A DNA stretch of 64,000 nt from Ensifer sp. IC4062 (GTDB taxonomy: Bacteria > Pseudomonadota > Alphaproteobacteria > Rhizobiales > Rhizobiaceae). This document shows positions 3,841 to 63,468 of the stretch, piece after piece. Numbering within the stretch: the stretch's first letter is position 1; the number at the start of each line of letters is the position of its first letter. The stretch lies in the NCBI RefSeq assembly GCF_020193575.1, contig NZ_JADYVD010000012.1, positions 62,001 through 126,000 on the forward strand, written 5' to 3'. The notes under the pieces were generated by a model. It did not search any database, was not told the DNA's origin, and worked only from the letters and a program-made list of their open reading frames with translations. Made by a program: the position numbers and the translations under genes.

Positions 3841-4268
3841 ATCGTGATGACCCCGCCCGGCTGGCGTGATGCAAGGCGGTTCTCCCGCGCCGTAGACGCG
3901 GCGCTGCTGGATTCCTGTGGCAAGCACAGGAATGAGGGAGAGAATGTTGCTAACGTGCCAACGGCCCAACTGACTTGATGATCGGACGTTTGTGCGGGCC
4001 AGGCTTTCACCAGCCAACTGACCTGGGGAGGGCGAGCGGATAGGCCTGTTGCGACTTGATTCAGAACACCTTCACGCGGGTGGACCCCTGCGCTGCTCGT
4101 GCGCGGCCAAAAATATGCCCCCTCATTCCTGTGCTTGTCACAGGAAACCAGCCACGGCGCGTCCGCGCCGTGATTGACTGCCCATCTGGAGATGAACCAG
4201 AAATCGCGCGCATCAAAGCGCCGCAATCCGTGCGATGCTACGTCACGATCCGCTTCGAGTCGCGAACC
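3841..4268. repeat. Inverted pair of a palindromic intergenic repeat (family A, locus 1)
   Basis: The first arm at about 3885-3947 reads GCGCCG...CGGCGCTGCTGG and then ATTCCTGTGGCAAGCACAGGAATGAGGG, itself a hairpin. The second arm at about 4119-4173 is its inverse (CTCATTCCTGTGCTTGTCAC, then AGG...CCAGCCACGGCGCGTCCGCGCCG). The same inverted pair occurs at 28.2 kb and 63.4 kb. Between the arms I see no gene. The organisation resembles the mosaic intergenic elements of rhizobia, but I cannot assign a catalogue name. Confidence 0.85.
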
Positions 4269-5036
4269 ATGCCACTGTTTCCGAAAGCCTTCCTCGTCGG
4301 CGCCGCCATTCTGACGGCCGGCTTTGCCGAGCCCTCGCCAGCGGACGCCGCAGACGCCGCCTGCCGGAATGTCATCCACCTCGGCGAGGAGTATGTCGTC
4401 TGCTCCTTTGATCCTGCCGCGAGCGACATTCGCCTTTACAACAGGGACCAGGCGGGCGTGCCGTTCAAATCCTTCAAGGCGCTGTCGCTCGAACTGCGCC
4501 AGCGCGACGAATATCTCGTCTTCGCCATGAATGGCGGCATGTATCACGAGGACCTTTCTCCGGTCGGCCTGCATGTGGAGGAGGGCGTGGAGCAGGCGCC
4601 GCTCAACACCAATTCCGGCTGGGGCAATTTCCACCTGCTGCCGAACGGCGTCTTCTATGTCGGCGAAGGCAAGGCGGGCGTGATGGCGGCGGAGGCTTAT
4701 CGCGCCGCCGCAATCAAACCACGCTTTGCCACCCAGTCCGGCCCGATGCTCGTAATCAATGGCGCACTGCATCCGCGCTTCCTGCCGAACAGCGACAGTT
4801 TGAAAACCCGAAACGGCGTCGGCGTGACAAGCGGGGGCGAGGTCGTTTTCGCGGTCTCGAAACGGCCGGTGCGCTTTCATGATTTCGCGACGCTATTTCG
4901 TGACGCCCTCGATTGCCCGAACGCGCTCTTTCTCGACGGCACGATTTCGAGCCTCTATGCGCCGGAAATCAATCGCCACGATCGGCTGTTTCCGCTTGGG
5001 CCGATCATCGCCGTCGTTGCTTCGTTCCCGCGATAA
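4269..5036 (+). CDS. Exported phosphodiester glycosidase-like protein (DUF2233)
   Basis: 255 residues. ATG 4269 gives a clear signal peptide (MPLFPKAFLVGAAILTAGFA, then a likely cut after ...SPADA around residue 27), so the product is probably periplasmic. The body has family landmarks: FAMNGGMYHED, TNSGWGNF, FATQSGPMLVINGALHP, RNGVGV and ALFLDGTISSLY, the conserved Asn/Gly/Asp loops of the NAGPA/DUF2233 phosphodiester glycosidase fold. Physiological substrate unknown. The frame is open back to 4056, through the intergenic repeat, which is why the internal ATG was preferred. It stands alone, with the sigma factor gene starting 77 bases downstream. Confidence 0.8.
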   Translation: MPLFPKAFLVGAAILTAGFAEPSPADAADAACRNVIHLGEEYVVCSFDPAASDIRLYNRDQAGVPFKSFKALSLELRQRDEYLVFAMNGGMYHEDLSPVGLHVEEGVEQAPLNTNSGWGNFHLLPNGVFYVGEGKAGVMAAEAYRAAAIKPRFATQSGPMLVINGALHPRFLPNSDSLKTRNGVGVTSGGEVVFAVSKRPVRFHDFATLFRDALDCPNALFLDGTISSLYAPEINRHDRLFPLGPIIAVVASFPR

Positions 5037-21821: not shown

Positions 21822-24800
21822 ATGCATCTGCTTCTCGCCCAGAAAGGCACGATCGCCGACGGCAACGAGGCGATCGATCTCGGGCAAAGCCCAGCCGACA
21901 TCCTGTTCCTCTCGGCTGCGGACACGGAACTCGCCTCGATCGCCGCGGCCTACAGGCGCCGCGCTGGGGCGAGGACGCTGCGCATCGCCAGCCTGATGAA
22001 CCTGATGCATCCGATGTCGGTCGACACCTATCTCGAGCGCACGGCGCGGCACGCGAAGCTCATCGTCGTCCGCCCGCTCGGCGGCGCGAGCTATTTCCGC
22101 TACGTGTTGGAGGCGCTGCATGCCGCGGCGGTGATGCGCAAGTTCCAGATCGCTGTGCTTCCCGGCGATGACAAGCCGGACCCAGGTCTCGATCCGTTCT
22201 CTACCGTGTCTGCGGAGGACCGCGCGCGCCTCTGGGCCTATTTCACCGAGGGCGGCGCCGATAATGCCGGGCTCTTCCTGGACTATGCCGAGGCGCTGAT
22301 TGCCGGCAGCGAGAAGCCGCAGCCGGCAAGGCCGCTTTTGAAGGCGGGCATCTGGTGGCCGGGCGAGGGCGTGGTCGGGGTGGACCGGTGGCGCGCGATT
22401 GCGGGTGTGCGGGGCACACCCCCCTCTGTCCTGCCGGACATCTCCCCTACAAGGGGGGAGATTGACCCGCGGCCAAGCCCCGTTCCTCAAACGCCCTCAG
22501 CAACGACACCCTCTGCCGGGCAGCCTCCCAACTCAGTGGCCGTCGAAGCGGTTGCCTCCGTGATCGCCCCCCTTGTGGGGGAGATGCCCGGCAGGGCAGA
22601 GGGGGGTACTCCCCACACCGACGCCGTTTCCGAGATCACCGTCGCCATCTGCTTCTACCGCGCCCTCGTGCAAAGCGGCGAAACGAAACCCGTCGAAGCC
22701 TTGATCGAGGCGCTTGCGGCCGAGGGCATGCGAGCACTGCCGGTCTTTGTCTCGAGCCTCAAGGATCAGGTCTCGATCGGCACGCTGCAGGCGATCTTCG
22801 CAGAGGCCGCACCGGACGTGGTGATGAATGCTACCGGCTTTGCGGTTTCCGCGCCCGGTGCCGACCGTCAGCCGACGGTGCTCGAATCGACCGGCGCGCC
22901 GGTGCTGCAGGTGATCTTTTCCGGCTCCTCGCGTGCCGCCTGGGAGGCTTCGCCGCAAGGACTGATGGCGCGTGATCTCGGCATGAACGTCGCGCTGCCG
23001 GAGGTGGATGGCCGCATTCTCTCCCGTGCCGTCTCGTTCAAGGCGGCGTCCGTCTACGATCCGGCGGTGGAAGCCAACATCGTCGGGCACGAACCGCTTG
23101 CCGATCGCGTCCGCTTTGCCGCCCGGCTTGCCGCCAATTGGGCACGGCTGCGGCGGGCAAGGCCGGAGGCGCGCCGCGTTGCCATCGTCATGGCCAATTA
23201 TCCCAACCGCGACGGGCGGCTCGGCAATGGCGTCGGCCTCGACACGCCGGCCGGTACCATCGAGGTGCTGAAGGCGATGGCGGCGGAGGGCTATCCCGTC
23301 GGCGATCTTCCCGAAGACGGCGATGCGCTCATGCGCTTCCTGATGACCGGGCCGACCAATGCGGCGAGCCGCGACCGCGAAATCCGCGAGGTCATTTCGC
23401 TCGCGCAATACAAGGATTTCCTGGACTCCCTTCCGCAGCAAATTCAGGACGAGGTGACGGCGCGTTGGGGCGATCCCGAAGCCGATCCCTTCTTCCTCGA
23501 CGGCGCTTTCGCGCTGCCGCTTGCGCGCTTCGGTGACGTGCTCGTCGGCATCCAGCCGGCGCGCGGCTACAACATCGATCCGAAAGAAACCTATCACGCG
23601 CCGGACCTCGTTCCGCCGCACGGCTATCTCGCCTTCTATGCTTTCCTGCGGCAGGTCTTCAAAGCCGACGCGATCATCCACATGGGCAAGCACGGCAATC
23701 TCGAATGGCTGCCGGGCAAGGCACTGGCGCTTTCGGAGAATTGTTATCCTGAGGCTGTCTTCGGCCCGACGCCGCATCTTTACCCGTTCATCGTCAACGA
23801 TCCGGGCGAGGGCACGCAGGCCAAGCGCCGCACCAGCGCCGTCATCATCGACCATCTGACGCCGCCTTTGACGCGGGCGGAGTCCTATGGGCCGCTGAAG
23901 GACCTGGAGGCTCTGGTCGACGAATATTACGAGGCAGCCGGCGGCGACCCGCGGCGGCTGAGGCTCCTGAGCCGACAGATCCTCGATCTCGTCCGCGACA
24001 TCGGCCTCGATCACGATGCCGGGATCGAAAAAGCCGACAGTGACGACAAGGCGCTGGAAAAGCTCGATGCCTATCTTTGCGACCTGAAGGAGATGCAGAT
24101 CCGCGACGGGCTGCACATCTTCGGCGTCGCGCCGGAAGGGCGCCTTCTGACGGACCTCACCGTGGCGCTGGCGCGGGTGCCGCGCGGCCTGGGCGAGGGG
24201 GGCGACCAGAGCCTGCAGCGGGCGATCGCGATGGATCTGGGATTGGGGGCGTCGGCGCGGGTACCCCCCTCTGTCCTGCCGGACTTCTCCCCCACAAGGA
24301 GGGAGATCAGGGAGGCGAGCGCTCGTATCTCGGCGGCACCCTCGCATGAGGCGAAGTCAGCGGCCCAGCAACGCGGTGCGAATCTGGTGGCCCAGCATCC
24401 CCAGGTGCGTCCGGCGGGTGAAGCTGCGTCTAATACCAACAGCACTGGTGAACCGAGCGGCAGCCACCTGCCAATCTCCCCTCTTGTGGGGAAGATGCCC
24501 GGCAGGGCAGAGGGGGGTGCGCCTCCGCAGTCCCAACCTTTCGATCCCCTCGATTGCGTCATGTCCGCGCCGTGGACCGGCCCGGAGCCCGCGCTTCTCG
24601 CCTCGCTCTCGGAAGCGCCCTGGCGCACCGCCGGCGACACCGTCGAGCGTATCGAAATCCTCGCCGCAAAGCTGGTCTCAGGCGAGATCGTCTGTCCCGC
24701 AGACTGGCCCGCCACACGCGCTGTCCTTGACGAGATCGGTACTCGACTGAAGCCCTCGATAGAAGGCTCCGGGGAAGCGGAAATCAAAGGCCTGCTCACC

Positions 24801-26090
24801 GGCCTCGACGGCCGCTTCGTAGCACCTGGGCCGTCCGGCGCGCCGACGCGCGGCCGTCCCGACGTGCTGCCGACCGGCCGCAATTTCTATTCCGTCGACA
24901 GCCGCGCCGTACCGACGCCGGCGGCCTATGAGCTCGGCAAGAAATCCGCTGAGCTGCTTATCCGTCGCTATTTGCAGGACCATGGCGAATGGCCGTCCTC
25001 CTTCGGGCTCACCGCCTGGGGCACCTCCAACATGCGCACCGGCGGCGACGATATCGCCCAGGCGCTGGCGCTGATCGGCGCGAAGCCGGTCTGGGACATG
25101 GCCTCGCGCCGCGTGACCGGCTACGAGATCGTGCCGCTGGCTGTGCTCGGGCGTCCGCGCGTCGATGTCACGCTCCGGATTTCCGGATTCTTCCGTGACG
25201 CTTTTCCAGAACAGATAGCGCTTTTCGACAAGGCGATCCGTGCTGTCGGCGCGCTGGAAGAGGATGACGGCGACAACATGATCGCCGCCCGCATGCGCGT
25301 CGAGACGCGGCGACTCGAGGAGAGGGGCGTAGATCCGAAGGAAGCAGCGCGGCGCGCCTCTTACCGCGTCTTCGGCGCCAAGCCGGGTGCCTACGGCGCC
25401 GGGCTGCAGGCGCTGATCGACGAGAAGGGCTGGGACAAGCGCAGCGATCTCGCCGATGCCTATCTCACCTGGGGCGGCTATGCTTATGGCGCCGGCGAGG
25501 AGGGCAAGGCCGAGCGCGGCCTTTTCGAGGAACGGCTGCGGTCGATCGAGGCTGTCGTCCAGAACCAGGACAATCGCGAACACGACCTCCTCGACAGCGA
25601 CGACTATTACCAGTTCGAAGGCGGCATGAGCGCTGCGGCGGAGCACCTCATCGGTCAGCGCCCGGCGATCTACCACAACGATCATTCGCGTCCGGAAAAG
25701 CCGGTGATCCGCTCGCTCGAAGAGGAGATTGGCCGGGTCGTGCGCGCCCGCGTCGTCAACCCGAAATGGATCGATGGCGTCATGCGCCACGGCTACAAGG
25801 GCGCCTTCGAGATCGCCGCGACGGTCGACTACATGTTCGCCTTCGCCGCGACCACCGGCGCAGTAGGCGACCACCATTTCGAGGCCGCTTACCGGGCATT
25901 CATCGCCGACGAAAAGGTCCTTGACTTCCTGCGCGACAAGAACTCGGCTGCGCTTACCGAAATATCGGAACGCTTCCTGGAGGCGATCGATCGCGGCCTC
26001 TGGAATCCGCGCTCCAACTCGGCGCGCTTTGAACTGAACAACCTGTCCGGTGACGCGGCCGCCCCTCCGCTGCGTACCGGAAACGAATAG
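21822..26090 (+). CDS. cobN: Cobaltochelatase large subunit CobN with two repeat-derived insertions
   Basis: 1422 residues, the catalytic subunit that with CobS and CobT inserts Co(II) into hydrogenobyrinic acid a,c-diamide. Chelatase landmarks include PPHGYLAFYAFLRQ, IIHMGKHGNLEWLPGKALAL, NDPGEGTQAKRR, LTAWGTSNMRTGGDD and MRHGYKGAFEIAATVDYMF. CobN of Pseudomonas denitrificans is 1275 residues. The surplus is largely explained by two inserted segments, residues ~200-263 and ~814-899, each built from the two arms of an inverted repeat that is intergenic elsewhere. Both are Pro/Ser/Gly-rich, keep the frame, and interrupt otherwise normal CobN sequence before AICFYRALVQSGE and before MSAPWTGPEPALLA. 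cobS and cobT are not in the window. Confidence 0.96.
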   Translation: MHLLLAQKGTIADGNEAIDLGQSPADILFLSAADTELASIAAAYRRRAGARTLRIASLMNLMHPMSVDTYLERTARHAKLIVVRPLGGASYFRYVLEALHAAAVMRKFQIAVLPGDDKPDPGLDPFSTVSAEDRARLWAYFTEGGADNAGLFLDYAEALIAGSEKPQPARPLLKAGIWWPGEGVVGVDRWRAIAGVRGTPPSVLPDISPTRGEIDPRPSPVPQTPSATTPSAGQPPNSVAVEAVASVIAPLVGEMPGRAEGGTPHTDAVSEITVAICFYRALVQSGETKPVEALIEALAAEGMRALPVFVSSLKDQVSIGTLQAIFAEAAPDVVMNATGFAVSAPGADRQPTVLESTGAPVLQVIFSGSSRAAWEASPQGLMARDLGMNVALPEVDGRILSRAVSFKAASVYDPAVEANIVGHEPLADRVRFAARLAANWARLRRARPEARRVAIVMANYPNRDGRLGNGVGLDTPAGTIEVLKAMAAEGYPVGDLPEDGDALMRFLMTGPTNAASRDREIREVISLAQYKDFLDSLPQQIQDEVTARWGDPEADPFFLDGAFALPLARFGDVLVGIQPARGYNIDPKETYHAPDLVPPHGYLAFYAFLRQVFKADAIIHMGKHGNLEWLPGKALALSENCYPEAVFGPTPHLYPFIVNDPGEGTQAKRRTSAVIIDHLTPPLTRAESYGPLKDLEALVDEYYEAAGGDPRRLRLLSRQILDLVRDIGLDHDAGIEKADSDDKALEKLDAYLCDLKEMQIRDGLHIFGVAPEGRLLTDLTVALARVPRGLGEGGDQSLQRAIAMDLGLGASARVPPSVLPDFSPTRREIREASARISAAPSHEAKSAAQQRGANLVAQHPQVRPAGEAASNTNSTGEPSGSHLPISPLVGKMPGRAEGGAPPQSQPFDPLDCVMSAPWTGPEPALLASLSEAPWRTAGDTVERIEILAAKLVSGEIVCPADWPATRAVLDEIGTRLKPSIEGSGEAEIKGLLTGLDGRFVAPGPSGAPTRGRPDVLPTGRNFYSVDSRAVPTPAAYELGKKSAELLIRRYLQDHGEWPSSFGLTAWGTSNMRTGGDDIAQALALIGAKPVWDMASRRVTGYEIVPLAVLGRPRVDVTLRISGFFRDAFPEQIALFDKAIRAVGALEEDDGDNMIAARMRVETRRLEERGVDPKEAARRASYRVFGAKPGAYGAGLQALIDEKGWDKRSDLADAYLTWGGYAYGAGEEGKAERGLFEERLRSIEAVVQNQDNREHDLLDSDDYYQFEGGMSAAAEHLIGQRPAIYHNDHSRPEKPVIRSLEEEIGRVVRARVVNPKWIDGVMRHGYKGAFEIAATVDYMFAFAATTGAVGDHHFEAAYRAFIADEKVLDFLRDKNSAALTEISERFLEAIDRGLWNPRSNSARFELNNLSGDAAAPPLRTGNE
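22419..22607. repeat. Composite inverted repeat (family C) inside cobN, copy 1
   Basis: The left arm 22419-22463 (CCCCCCTCTGTCCTGCCGGA, then CATCTCCCCTACAAGGGGGGAG) and right arm 22563-22607 (CCCCCCTTGTGGGGGAGATG, then CCCGGCAGGGCAGAGGGGGGT) are near-perfect inverses separated by about 100 bases. They are translated as PPSVLPDISPTRGEI and APLVGEMPGRAEGGTP. Confidence 0.9.
24263..24518. repeat. Composite inverted repeat (family C) inside cobN, copy 2
   Basis: Left arm 24263-24308 and right arm 24473-24518, the same sequences as copy 1 with a few changes, about 165 bases apart. Translated in the same frame as copy 1: PPSVLPDFSPTRREI and SPLVGKMPGRAEGGAP. Confidence 0.9.
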
Positions 26091-27974: not shown

Positions 27975-28174
27975 GGTGGGCTCGGAAGCGAAATGCCAGC
28001 GGAATTGTTTCCGCCTTGTGTCAGAGCTTGGCGGGAAATGCAAAGGGCGCACGGCGGGTTTTTCCCCGAATCGCCCTGCGTTGGCGTTGATATATGGACG
28101 GCGCCGATCACTTTGATGAGCCTGGACAAGGTGTCCAAGACTTCCGATCAGTATCGAGGGTTCGGAATAGTTTC

Positions 28175-28369
28175 CGCGCCGCCGACGCGGCGCTGCTGGA
28201 TTCCTGTGACAAGCACAGGAATGAGGGAATTTGCTGCGGCGGCGCGCGCTTTGGCGGTGATGAAAAGCGGCTGAATGCGCCTTGGCCGAGGAAATCTTTG
28301 ACCAACATGCACGCCCTCATTCCTGTGCTTGTCACAGGAATCCAGCCACGGCGCGTCCGCGCCGTGAAT
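28175..28369. repeat. Inverted pair of palindromic repeat (family A, locus 2)
   Basis: Left arm ...GACGCGGCGCTGCTGG, then ATTCCTGTGACAAGCACAGG and AATGAGGG; right arm CCCTCATTCCTGTGCTTGTC, then ACAGGAATCCAGCCACGGCG. Same arrangement as at 3.9-4.2 and 63.3-63.5 kb. The inner ATTCCTGTG-ACAAG-CACAGGAAT is a perfect hairpin. Confidence 0.9.
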
Positions 28370-28375
28370 GACTCT

Positions 28376-38565: not shown

Positions 38566-38730
38566 GCTACCCCTCTGGCCTGCCGGCCATCTCCCCCACA
38601 AGGGGGGAGAATGGATGTGGCGCTCCCCAGTGCCAATCTGGAGACTGGCGACCTTCTGTTGGAGCGAATAGGTTGCCGCGAGTCGATCTCCCCCTTGTGG
38701 GGGAGATGGCCGGCAGGCCAGAGGGGGGTG
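38566..38730. repeat. Composite inverted repeat (family C), intergenic copy
   Basis: Left arm 38566-38611 (CTACCCCTCTGGCCTGCCGG, then CCATCTCCCCCACAAGGGGG) and right arm 38683-38730 (ATCTCCCCCTTGTGGGGGAG, then ATGGCCGGCAGGCCAGAGGG) about 70 bases apart. Same element as the two inside cobN. Sits between fabF1XL and the alcohol dehydrogenase gene. Confidence 0.9.
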
Positions 38731-38822
38731 AAACGTCGGCGCTGGCCTGACGCGTCCAGAATACATGCATAAGCCCTAAACACGACTAGCCGCTCGACGA
38801 CGGAATACTCAAAGGAAACACC

Positions 38823-63299: not shown

Positions 63300-63348
63300 A
63301 CCACAGTACACGACAGCAGCTCAATTGGTTTGGCGGATGCTTTTTTCG

Positions 63349-63468
63349 CCCCCATTCCTGTGCTTGTCACAGGAGTCCAGCAGCGCCGCGTCTGCGGCGC
63401 GGAAGAAACTTTTCAGCCCAAGGACTTGGGCTGACTAGATTCCTGTGACAAGCACAGGAATGAGGACA
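63349..63468. repeat. Inverted pair of palindromic repeat (family A, locus 3)
   Basis: CCCATTCCTGTGCTTGTCAC, then AGGAGTCCAGCAGCGCCGCG, and, inverted, ATTCCTGTGACAAGCACAGG, then AATGAGGACAGG. The arms are only about 33 bases apart, the most compact of the three loci. Confidence 0.88.

Follow-up and report, generated by a model that had tools for sequence, protein, structure and literature searches.

Rickettsia palindromic elements (RPE) were reportedly described by Ogata in 2000 and 2002, and RIME and the AB and C palindromes of Sinorhizobium are said to go back to Osteras in 1995. In those parts of the sources cited here that were available to us, RPE are palindromes of 105-146 bp with open reading frames that lie in frame in genes for conserved proteins as well as between genes, and one enzyme with such an insert, gmk, was reported to be active (PMC2229807). 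Repetitive extragenic palindromes (REPs) of the GTAG/CGTC class occur within genes, uvrB among them, as units and as inverted dimers, and different REPs lie at about one site of recB in two Xanthomonas (PMC3733652). In a REPIN, which is associated with a RAYT, two conserved REPs in inverted orientation flank a spacer (PMC3116915), and RIME and the AB and C palindromes are dispersed repeats described as intergenic (PMC2573895, PMC2245857, PMC2873474).

We analysed a window of 64,000 nucleotides from Ensifer sp. IC4062 whose cobN gene carries two palindromic inserts in frame. As in the accessible account of RPE, a palindrome sits in frame in a conserved gene, the host sequence resumes behind it and homologues without it exist (PMC2229807); the earlier note had been reminded of the coding palindromes of Rickettsia, and the likeness is one of behaviour, compared by description. 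Unlike RPE as described there, the elements reported here belong to another bacterial order and to other host genes, occupy two sites of one gene with several repeat types across a whole family, and have arms and spacers that evolve at very different rates. With the GTAG/CGTC REPs they share an intragenic position, uvrB as a host and recurrence at one site, but their arms end in neither GTAG nor CGTC and recurrence at the same site is far wider here; the accessible part of that report makes no mention of CobN, FtsY, PbpC or the di-haem DHOR protein as REP hosts (PMC3733652). An inverted pair of conserved arms flanking a spacer is also the plan of a REPIN as outlined in the available text (PMC3116915), from which the present elements differ in that some copies are translated and that no PF01797 protein was found in the window's genome. 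Compared by description, they resemble RIME and the AB and C palindromes as dispersed palindromic repeats of rhizobia, but have translated copies, of which the accessible parts of those sources make no mention. The titles and abstract openings of the matches listed in one literature library include no in-frame palindrome in CobN or in rhizobial genes; as far as these literature searches show, what is new is that one gene is hit recurrently at two sites and that frozen arms go together with neutral spacers.

The 1422-residue frame reported in the earlier note was recovered as such, and its identity as CobN is supported by a score of 1779 bits against the TIGR02257 profile (cut-off 822) [Table 1]. 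Repeat search, open reading frame and fold z-scores agree on the two in-frame palindromic inserts that the note had proposed, the predicted RNA folds amounting to -130.3 kcal/mol (z -8.35; matched by 0 of 200 shuffles) at site 1 and -161.3 kcal/mol (z -7.10; likewise matched by none) at site 2. Translation of the frame also bears out that the left-arm peptides of the two sites, and equally the right-arm peptides, are near-identical and read in one phase, and alignments show that regular CobN sequence picks up again past each insert. The further claim that the same composite repeat occurs three times in the window is right for the arms, since a whole-window repeat search places all six in one family, including those of the third copy (forward, 38567-38611; reverse, 38685-38734), in which 37 of 37 arm bases are complementary (38570-38606 with 38690-38726). 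It does not extend to the sequence between the arms, which differs between sites 1 and 2, and the sizes needed slight correction, site 1 holding an element of ~182-195 bp and site 2 one of ~248-261 bp. Rfam gave no match anywhere in the window. A second inverted-repeat family (CCCTCATTCCTGTGCTTGTCACAGGAATCCAGC...), perhaps a RIME-type element, is seen in the window at 3880-4180, 28172-28373 and 63343-63467.

Table 1. cobN, its inserts and related sequences (window positions unless a locus is named)
Feature	Position	Strand	Remarks	Basis
cobN	21822..26090	+	cobaltochelatase subunit CobN, 1422 aa, two in-frame repeat inserts	ORF, TIGR02257
Site 1 insert	22418..22612	+	palindromic, inverted arms flanking a spacer, ~residues 199-264	repeat search, alignment, fold
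Site 1 left arm	22418..22462	+	translated PPSVLPDISPTRGEI	repeat search, ORF translation
Site 1 right arm	22563..22612	-	inverted, translated IAPLVGEMPGRAEGG	repeat search, ORF translation
Site 2 insert	24263..24523	+	palindromic, spacer longer than and unlike that of site 1, ~residues 814-900	repeat search, alignment, fold
Site 2 left arm	24263..24307	+	translated PPSVLPDFSPTRREI	repeat search, ORF translation
Site 2 right arm	24474..24523	-	inverted, translated ISPLVGKMPGRAEGG	repeat search, ORF translation
Third element copy	38567..38734	.	intergenic according to the earlier note	repeat search
Apparent antisense tRNA 3' ends, CobN site 1 right edge	L162 5568-5636; L105 5568-5813; L095 5568-5849; L117 5562-5630			

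Each arm carries, besides a small hairpin with a variable complementary pair (G-N-CCTGCCGG-N-C), a second hairpin (TCTCCCCC...GGGGGAGA). At up to three mismatches the arm core gave 47+46 matches (93) in genome G000 against 16+15 (31) for a reversed-pattern control, and 48 to 111 arm matches apiece in six other genomes of the genus, where controls gave 0; the element as a whole was found in Rhizobiaceae and their neighbours. The set of excised sequences comprises 79 full elements and 37 single arms; it draws on the window, on loci of G000, G007, G009 and part of G010, and on single loci of G016 and G030. The commonest ends, those of most of the 79 elements, are YACCCCCC...GGGGGGTR, with neither GTAG nor CGTC at a unit end, and no constant target duplication was found among the 79; TA was discarded as a candidate duplication, flanking both sides in only 2 of them. 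The elements are short and dispersed and have terminal inverted repeats, as MITEs do, and consist of two inverted REP-like units with strongly conserved arms round a short spacer, as REPINs do. A profile search of four genomes for the Y1/RAYT transposase (PF01797) found none in G000, G009 and G010 and four copies with equal scores in G007, and a RAYT was set aside as the mobiliser given its absence from three of the four. A candidate parent element in G007, suggested by two arm pairs ~1.4 kb apart, proved on reading to be an insertion sequence within an arm; no parental insertion sequence with matching ends was recognized among the loci inspected, and no transposition event was observed. Seemingly one and the same insertion sequence, possibly ISAs1-like, lies in an arm twice in that genome (L196 2900-4380 and L248 2940-4440). 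We liken this to the insertion sequences of S. meliloti that target REPs, as the available part of that report describes them (PMC1525189). The inserts are best read as non-autonomous elements of a REP/MITE-like kind that are tolerated as protein and not selected for it.

Copies of the element are also found in other genes. A codon-usage gene finder placed 25 arm matches within genes and 156 between genes, with the caveat that genes starting at the ATG of an arm are likely start-site artefacts and that it missed L169 and put L234 on the wrong strand; host genes were therefore confirmed by family matches and reading. Those recognized by one or the other besides cobN are ftsY (with two insertions in G000), pbpC, the gene for a DHOR protein and, in G009, uvrB. 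The inserts in all four lie outside the family-matched domains, that of the G009 uvrB past the end of the UvrB match. The phase of the matched arms is that of CobN in ftsY, pbpC and uvrB and another in the DHOR gene; in ftsY some forward arms read TPPSVPSGHLPHKGGD, the phase shifting within the arm. Among the 33 genomes, FtsY open frames vary in length between 523 and 770 aa, and PbpC family matches start at varying N-terminal positions.

An AlphaFold2 model of CobN residues 1-1192, made from 25 sequences and weak overall (mean pLDDT 61.5, pTM 0.50), with other low stretches present, gives pLDDT values of ~25-35 over residues 197-268 and 811-904 between ordered flanks. The site 1 insert is modelled between a helix and a strand and the site 2 insert after a helix, both inserts being predicted to be disordered. 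We consider it likely that the inserts are members of a dispersed palindrome family whose coding copies survive in disordered linkers, the spacer peptide being neutral and the arms being kept at the nucleic-acid level. Short palindromes (~155-250 bp, with two inverted ~45-nt arms) are spread through Rhizobiaceae genomes, presumably by mobility, and copies that reach coding DNA would last only in disordered linkers, where the added residues do no harm. Survivors mostly use an open phase with little Cys and Trp, a bias that probably reflects the same filter. CobN would have two tolerant linkers of this kind, so that the same two places have been hit repeatedly, internally deleted and hit again by several repeat types. 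The spacer peptide would thereafter drift as neutral sequence, and the arms would stay near-identical through a nucleic-acid process, most likely by being homogenised with copies elsewhere in the genome or copied from them; the main alternative for their upkeep is selection on the hairpin itself.

Across eight pairs of genomes of the genus, dN/dS was 0.06-0.09 in the CobN core and 0.55-1.65 in the inserts. In seven pairs, which like the former share species and in which some spacers may be unrelated rather than diverged, the spacers had dS 0.393 and dN 0.363 at site 1 and 0.254 for both at site 2; the arms, dS 0.034 and dN 0.060 at site 1 and 0.035 for both at site 2; and the core, dS 0.319 and dN 0.031. 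Because dN equals dS in the spacers of the pairs tested, we take the spacer to be neutral as protein, with no detectable constraint on its peptide. The arms, with a synonymous divergence about ninefold below that of the core, are therefore held at the DNA or RNA level. Outside cobN, 17 orthologous pairs, several of which share loci, differ at 133 of 1541 arm positions (8.6%) and 726 of 1599 spacer positions (45%). Arms and spacers differ by 2.2% and 34.3% in four pairs of DHOR copies (mean flank identity 81.7%; L232 was counted as DHOR on its flanks only), by 9.3% and 50.7% in seven pairs of pbpC copies (82.8%), and by 12.3% and 47.2% in six pairs of copies without a confirmed host gene (84.0%), meaning none by gene finder, family match or reading. 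The contrast is thus not confined to genes and is weaker outside confirmed ones. The earlier note had suggested that the element tolerates being translated or is adapted to it; the neutral spacer peptide, the conservation of the arms at synonymous sites as well and the persistence of the contrast without a confirmed host gene (12% against 47%) speak against the latter.

It is conceivable that the hairpins are functional in the mRNA, stem-loops at domain boundaries slowing the ribosome and aiding co-translational folding, or setting the level of CobN, with selection on RNA structure keeping the arms. The weaker contrast outside confirmed genes is a point in favour of this explanation, and the lower divergence of DHOR and pbpC arms than the 12.3% of copies without a confirmed host gene leaves room for a constraint specific to coding copies. 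The very stable predicted folds, the roughly ninefold synonymous conservation of the arms and the placement of the inserts between segments that the model predicts to be ordered are in keeping with it, as is the variable hairpin pair of the coding copies in CobN, whose complementarity is intact in 189 of 195 arms (84 of 88 left, 105 of 107 right). We nevertheless regard such a function as unlikely, given that an insert is absent at site 1 from 17 of the 33 genomes of the genus and at site 2 from 17, of which 5 keep a remnant there, and that the contrast between arms and spacers persists where no host gene was confirmed. In addition, the left and right arms of one insert often have unlike variable pairs, so that long-range pairing between them is imperfect.

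The distribution of the inserts bears on whether each site received a single ancestral insertion that was subsequently lost, decayed or altered by gene conversion. All 33 Sinorhizobium/Ensifer genomes that make up the genus set have CobN (32 were aligned and G028 was read separately); 16 have an insert at site 1 and 16 at site 2, and the remainder have short linkers or in-frame remnants. The insert is partly deleted at site 1 in G024 and G027 and at site 2 in G016 and G019, and a short arm remnant alone is left at site 2 in 5 of the 33 and at site 1 in G002; the remnant CTGCCCTGCCGGGC-GGCAGGGCAG of G004 seems to have lost its middle by an in-frame deletion. No segment homologous to the inserts exists at either site in CobNs that lack the repeat DNA, in agreement with the insertion of a repeat element that the earlier note had proposed, and the inserts are recurrent across genus and family in the CobN alignment rather than strain-specific. 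The solved CobN 9uk9 (1263 aa) has neither, query matches breaking between its residues 186 and 201 and at 745. CobNs of other families have mostly short linkers; among 41 that could be aligned (in one of which, L320, the contig ends short of site 1; L278-L285 yielded no CobN), an insert is present at site 1 in one (L322) and at site 2 in none. One is also seen at site 1 in L294, which belongs to the window's family. A family sample of 61 genomes, 51 with a match, contributed 19 new regions picked for long frames or split matches, of which 16 gave a CobN (L337-L339 did not); 9 of these 16 have an insert on reading, some of them also belonging to the named set described below. In G186, G198 and G156, which have a divergent group of CobNs (~40% identity), the match breaks near query residues 185-209, and the same linker may have been hit in this group as well.

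Several types of repeat were found at the same two linkers. The named loci are the best 80 of 594, mostly from Rhizobium and its relatives, and 78 of them gave an open CobN (L113 and L136 did not). Of the CobNs parsed, 53 of 73 have a repeat motif at site 1 and 77 of 77 at site 2; these frequencies are inflated, since the loci were chosen by their similarity to a query that itself bears inserts. By motif, five palindrome types can be told apart, namely that of the window, one with a TCAGC...GCTGA first hairpin and the same second hairpin, CTTCTCCCC...GGGGAGAAG, CCCCTCCCC... and CCCTGACCCTCTCCCC, and some sites hold two or three repeats in tandem. The flanking DNA of the named loci, outside cobN itself, contains matches to 129 of 131 insert sequences and to 0 of 78 control stretches of cobN; the outside copy lies in the same locus for 36 of the 131 and in loci of other genomes only for the rest. 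On a FastTree tree of 135 CobN cores, from which the site columns were removed and L152, L154, L158, L159, L161 and L299 were left out as truncated, there are at least 26 changes of presence or absence at site 1 and at least 14 at site 2, gains and losses being counted together. Type changes on the same tree number 42 at site 1 and 37 at site 2. The tree counts used stricter motifs than the counts among the parsed CobNs, where one motif was loose and overlapped another.

Many spacers are alignable within the genus and the remnants indicate internal deletion, both of which would be expected of a single old insertion per site. Such a history is nonetheless quite improbable in view of the different repeat types that different genera have at one site, the copies elsewhere, the many type changes on the tree and the near-complete lack of inserts in outgroups.

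Other sequences were observed at or near these sites. A further palindrome of ~40 nt is nested in frame inside a repeat arm in cobN at site 1 of L103, both sites of L122 and site 1 of L294, and palindromic repeats lie directly upstream of cobN, at ~4700-4990, in L133, L141, L142, L151, L098 and L134. The site 1 peptide of L327, SGLDWIPGQARDDE, may stem from a dispersed repeat of still another kind. Several Rhizobium have at the right edge of site 1 what resembles an antisense tRNA 3' end [Table 1], and in L162 and L105 a 25-nt edge pattern fits, with at most one mismatch, the cobN copy as well as the 3' end of a tRNA-Met (cat) gene of the same genome. A full tRNA at this site was rejected, the tRNA model scoring 20.4 bits in L095 (cut-off 29) and L162 giving no tRNA-family match and only 8.5 bits for tmRNA; judging from the sequence, the putative tRNA-derived part is the 3' end only. 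MIR1846, which scored 42.4 bits in L095, below its cut-off of 77.5, was likewise dismissed, the score being due to the long palindrome.

Among 116 non-identical, though not independent, CobN sequences, arms of the window's type share one phase in 82 of 88 cases on the left and 104 of 107 on the right, the other frames being used by 6 and 3, respectively, so that the shared phase is strong, not absolute. In 158 readings taken in the left-arm direction, the three frames of the arms are open 157, 154 and 153 times, and Cys makes up 0.1% of the used frame against 7.1% and 5.2% of the others. The openness of all three frames is a property of the arms alone, and the notion that stops are irrelevant to phase was dropped, whole elements and shifted insert frames both carrying stops. 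Read in their real frame, the 147 CobN inserts contain 37 Cys and 29 Trp among 9889 residues, against 288 and 458 Cys, 239 and 191 Trp, and 149 and 311 stops in the shifted frames (9742 residues each). Since 68 whole elements outside the listed coding ones have on average 3.2 of 6 frames open, and the shifted frames are fully open in just 50 and 15 of the 147 inserts, stops contribute to the phase bias. The bias fits a filter against stops, Cys and Trp, and we infer no more than that one or several of these act.

The single phase and the near-identical arm peptides found at both sites in many species could also suggest that the inserts are adaptive protein segments with a role in CobN, such as the binding of a partner subunit. 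We hold this to be very improbable, however, as the spacers evolve with dN equal to dS, related species do without the inserts, the same sites are occupied by other repeat types encoding other peptides, and arm conservation is equally strong at synonymous sites. That the inserts are an artefact of assembly or sequencing, to which the draft state of the window's genome (175 contigs) might lend some colour, can be practically dismissed, the same inserts recurring with substitutions of their own in independent genomes that include G010 (3 contigs, 94% identity) and at each site in 16 of the 33 genomes of the genus.

Beyond the preferred reading of tolerated palindromes in disordered linkers, we tentatively put forward as a possibility that the two CobN linkers have long served as landing sites for structured DNA whatever its origin, including the five palindrome types, the nested palindromes and the tRNA 3' ends, and that the arms might be actively maintained as hairpins within a gene that is translated, whether through concerted evolution with copies elsewhere in the genome or because hairpins placed between domains tune the translation of CobN. 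The positions hit in CobN, FtsY, PbpC and UvrB are candidate insertion-tolerant sites, and masking them in the annotation and phylogenies of Rhizobiales proteins would be advisable. A simple survival rule is suggested for phase (open, poor in Cys and Trp, and disordered), and a single coding insert makes it possible to separate constraint on nucleic acid, as seen in the arms, from constraint on peptide, none of which was detected in the spacer. With two sites, many outcomes, and inserted and empty versions in sister species, the CobN linkers may be viewed as a natural experiment on how repeat DNA turns into protein.
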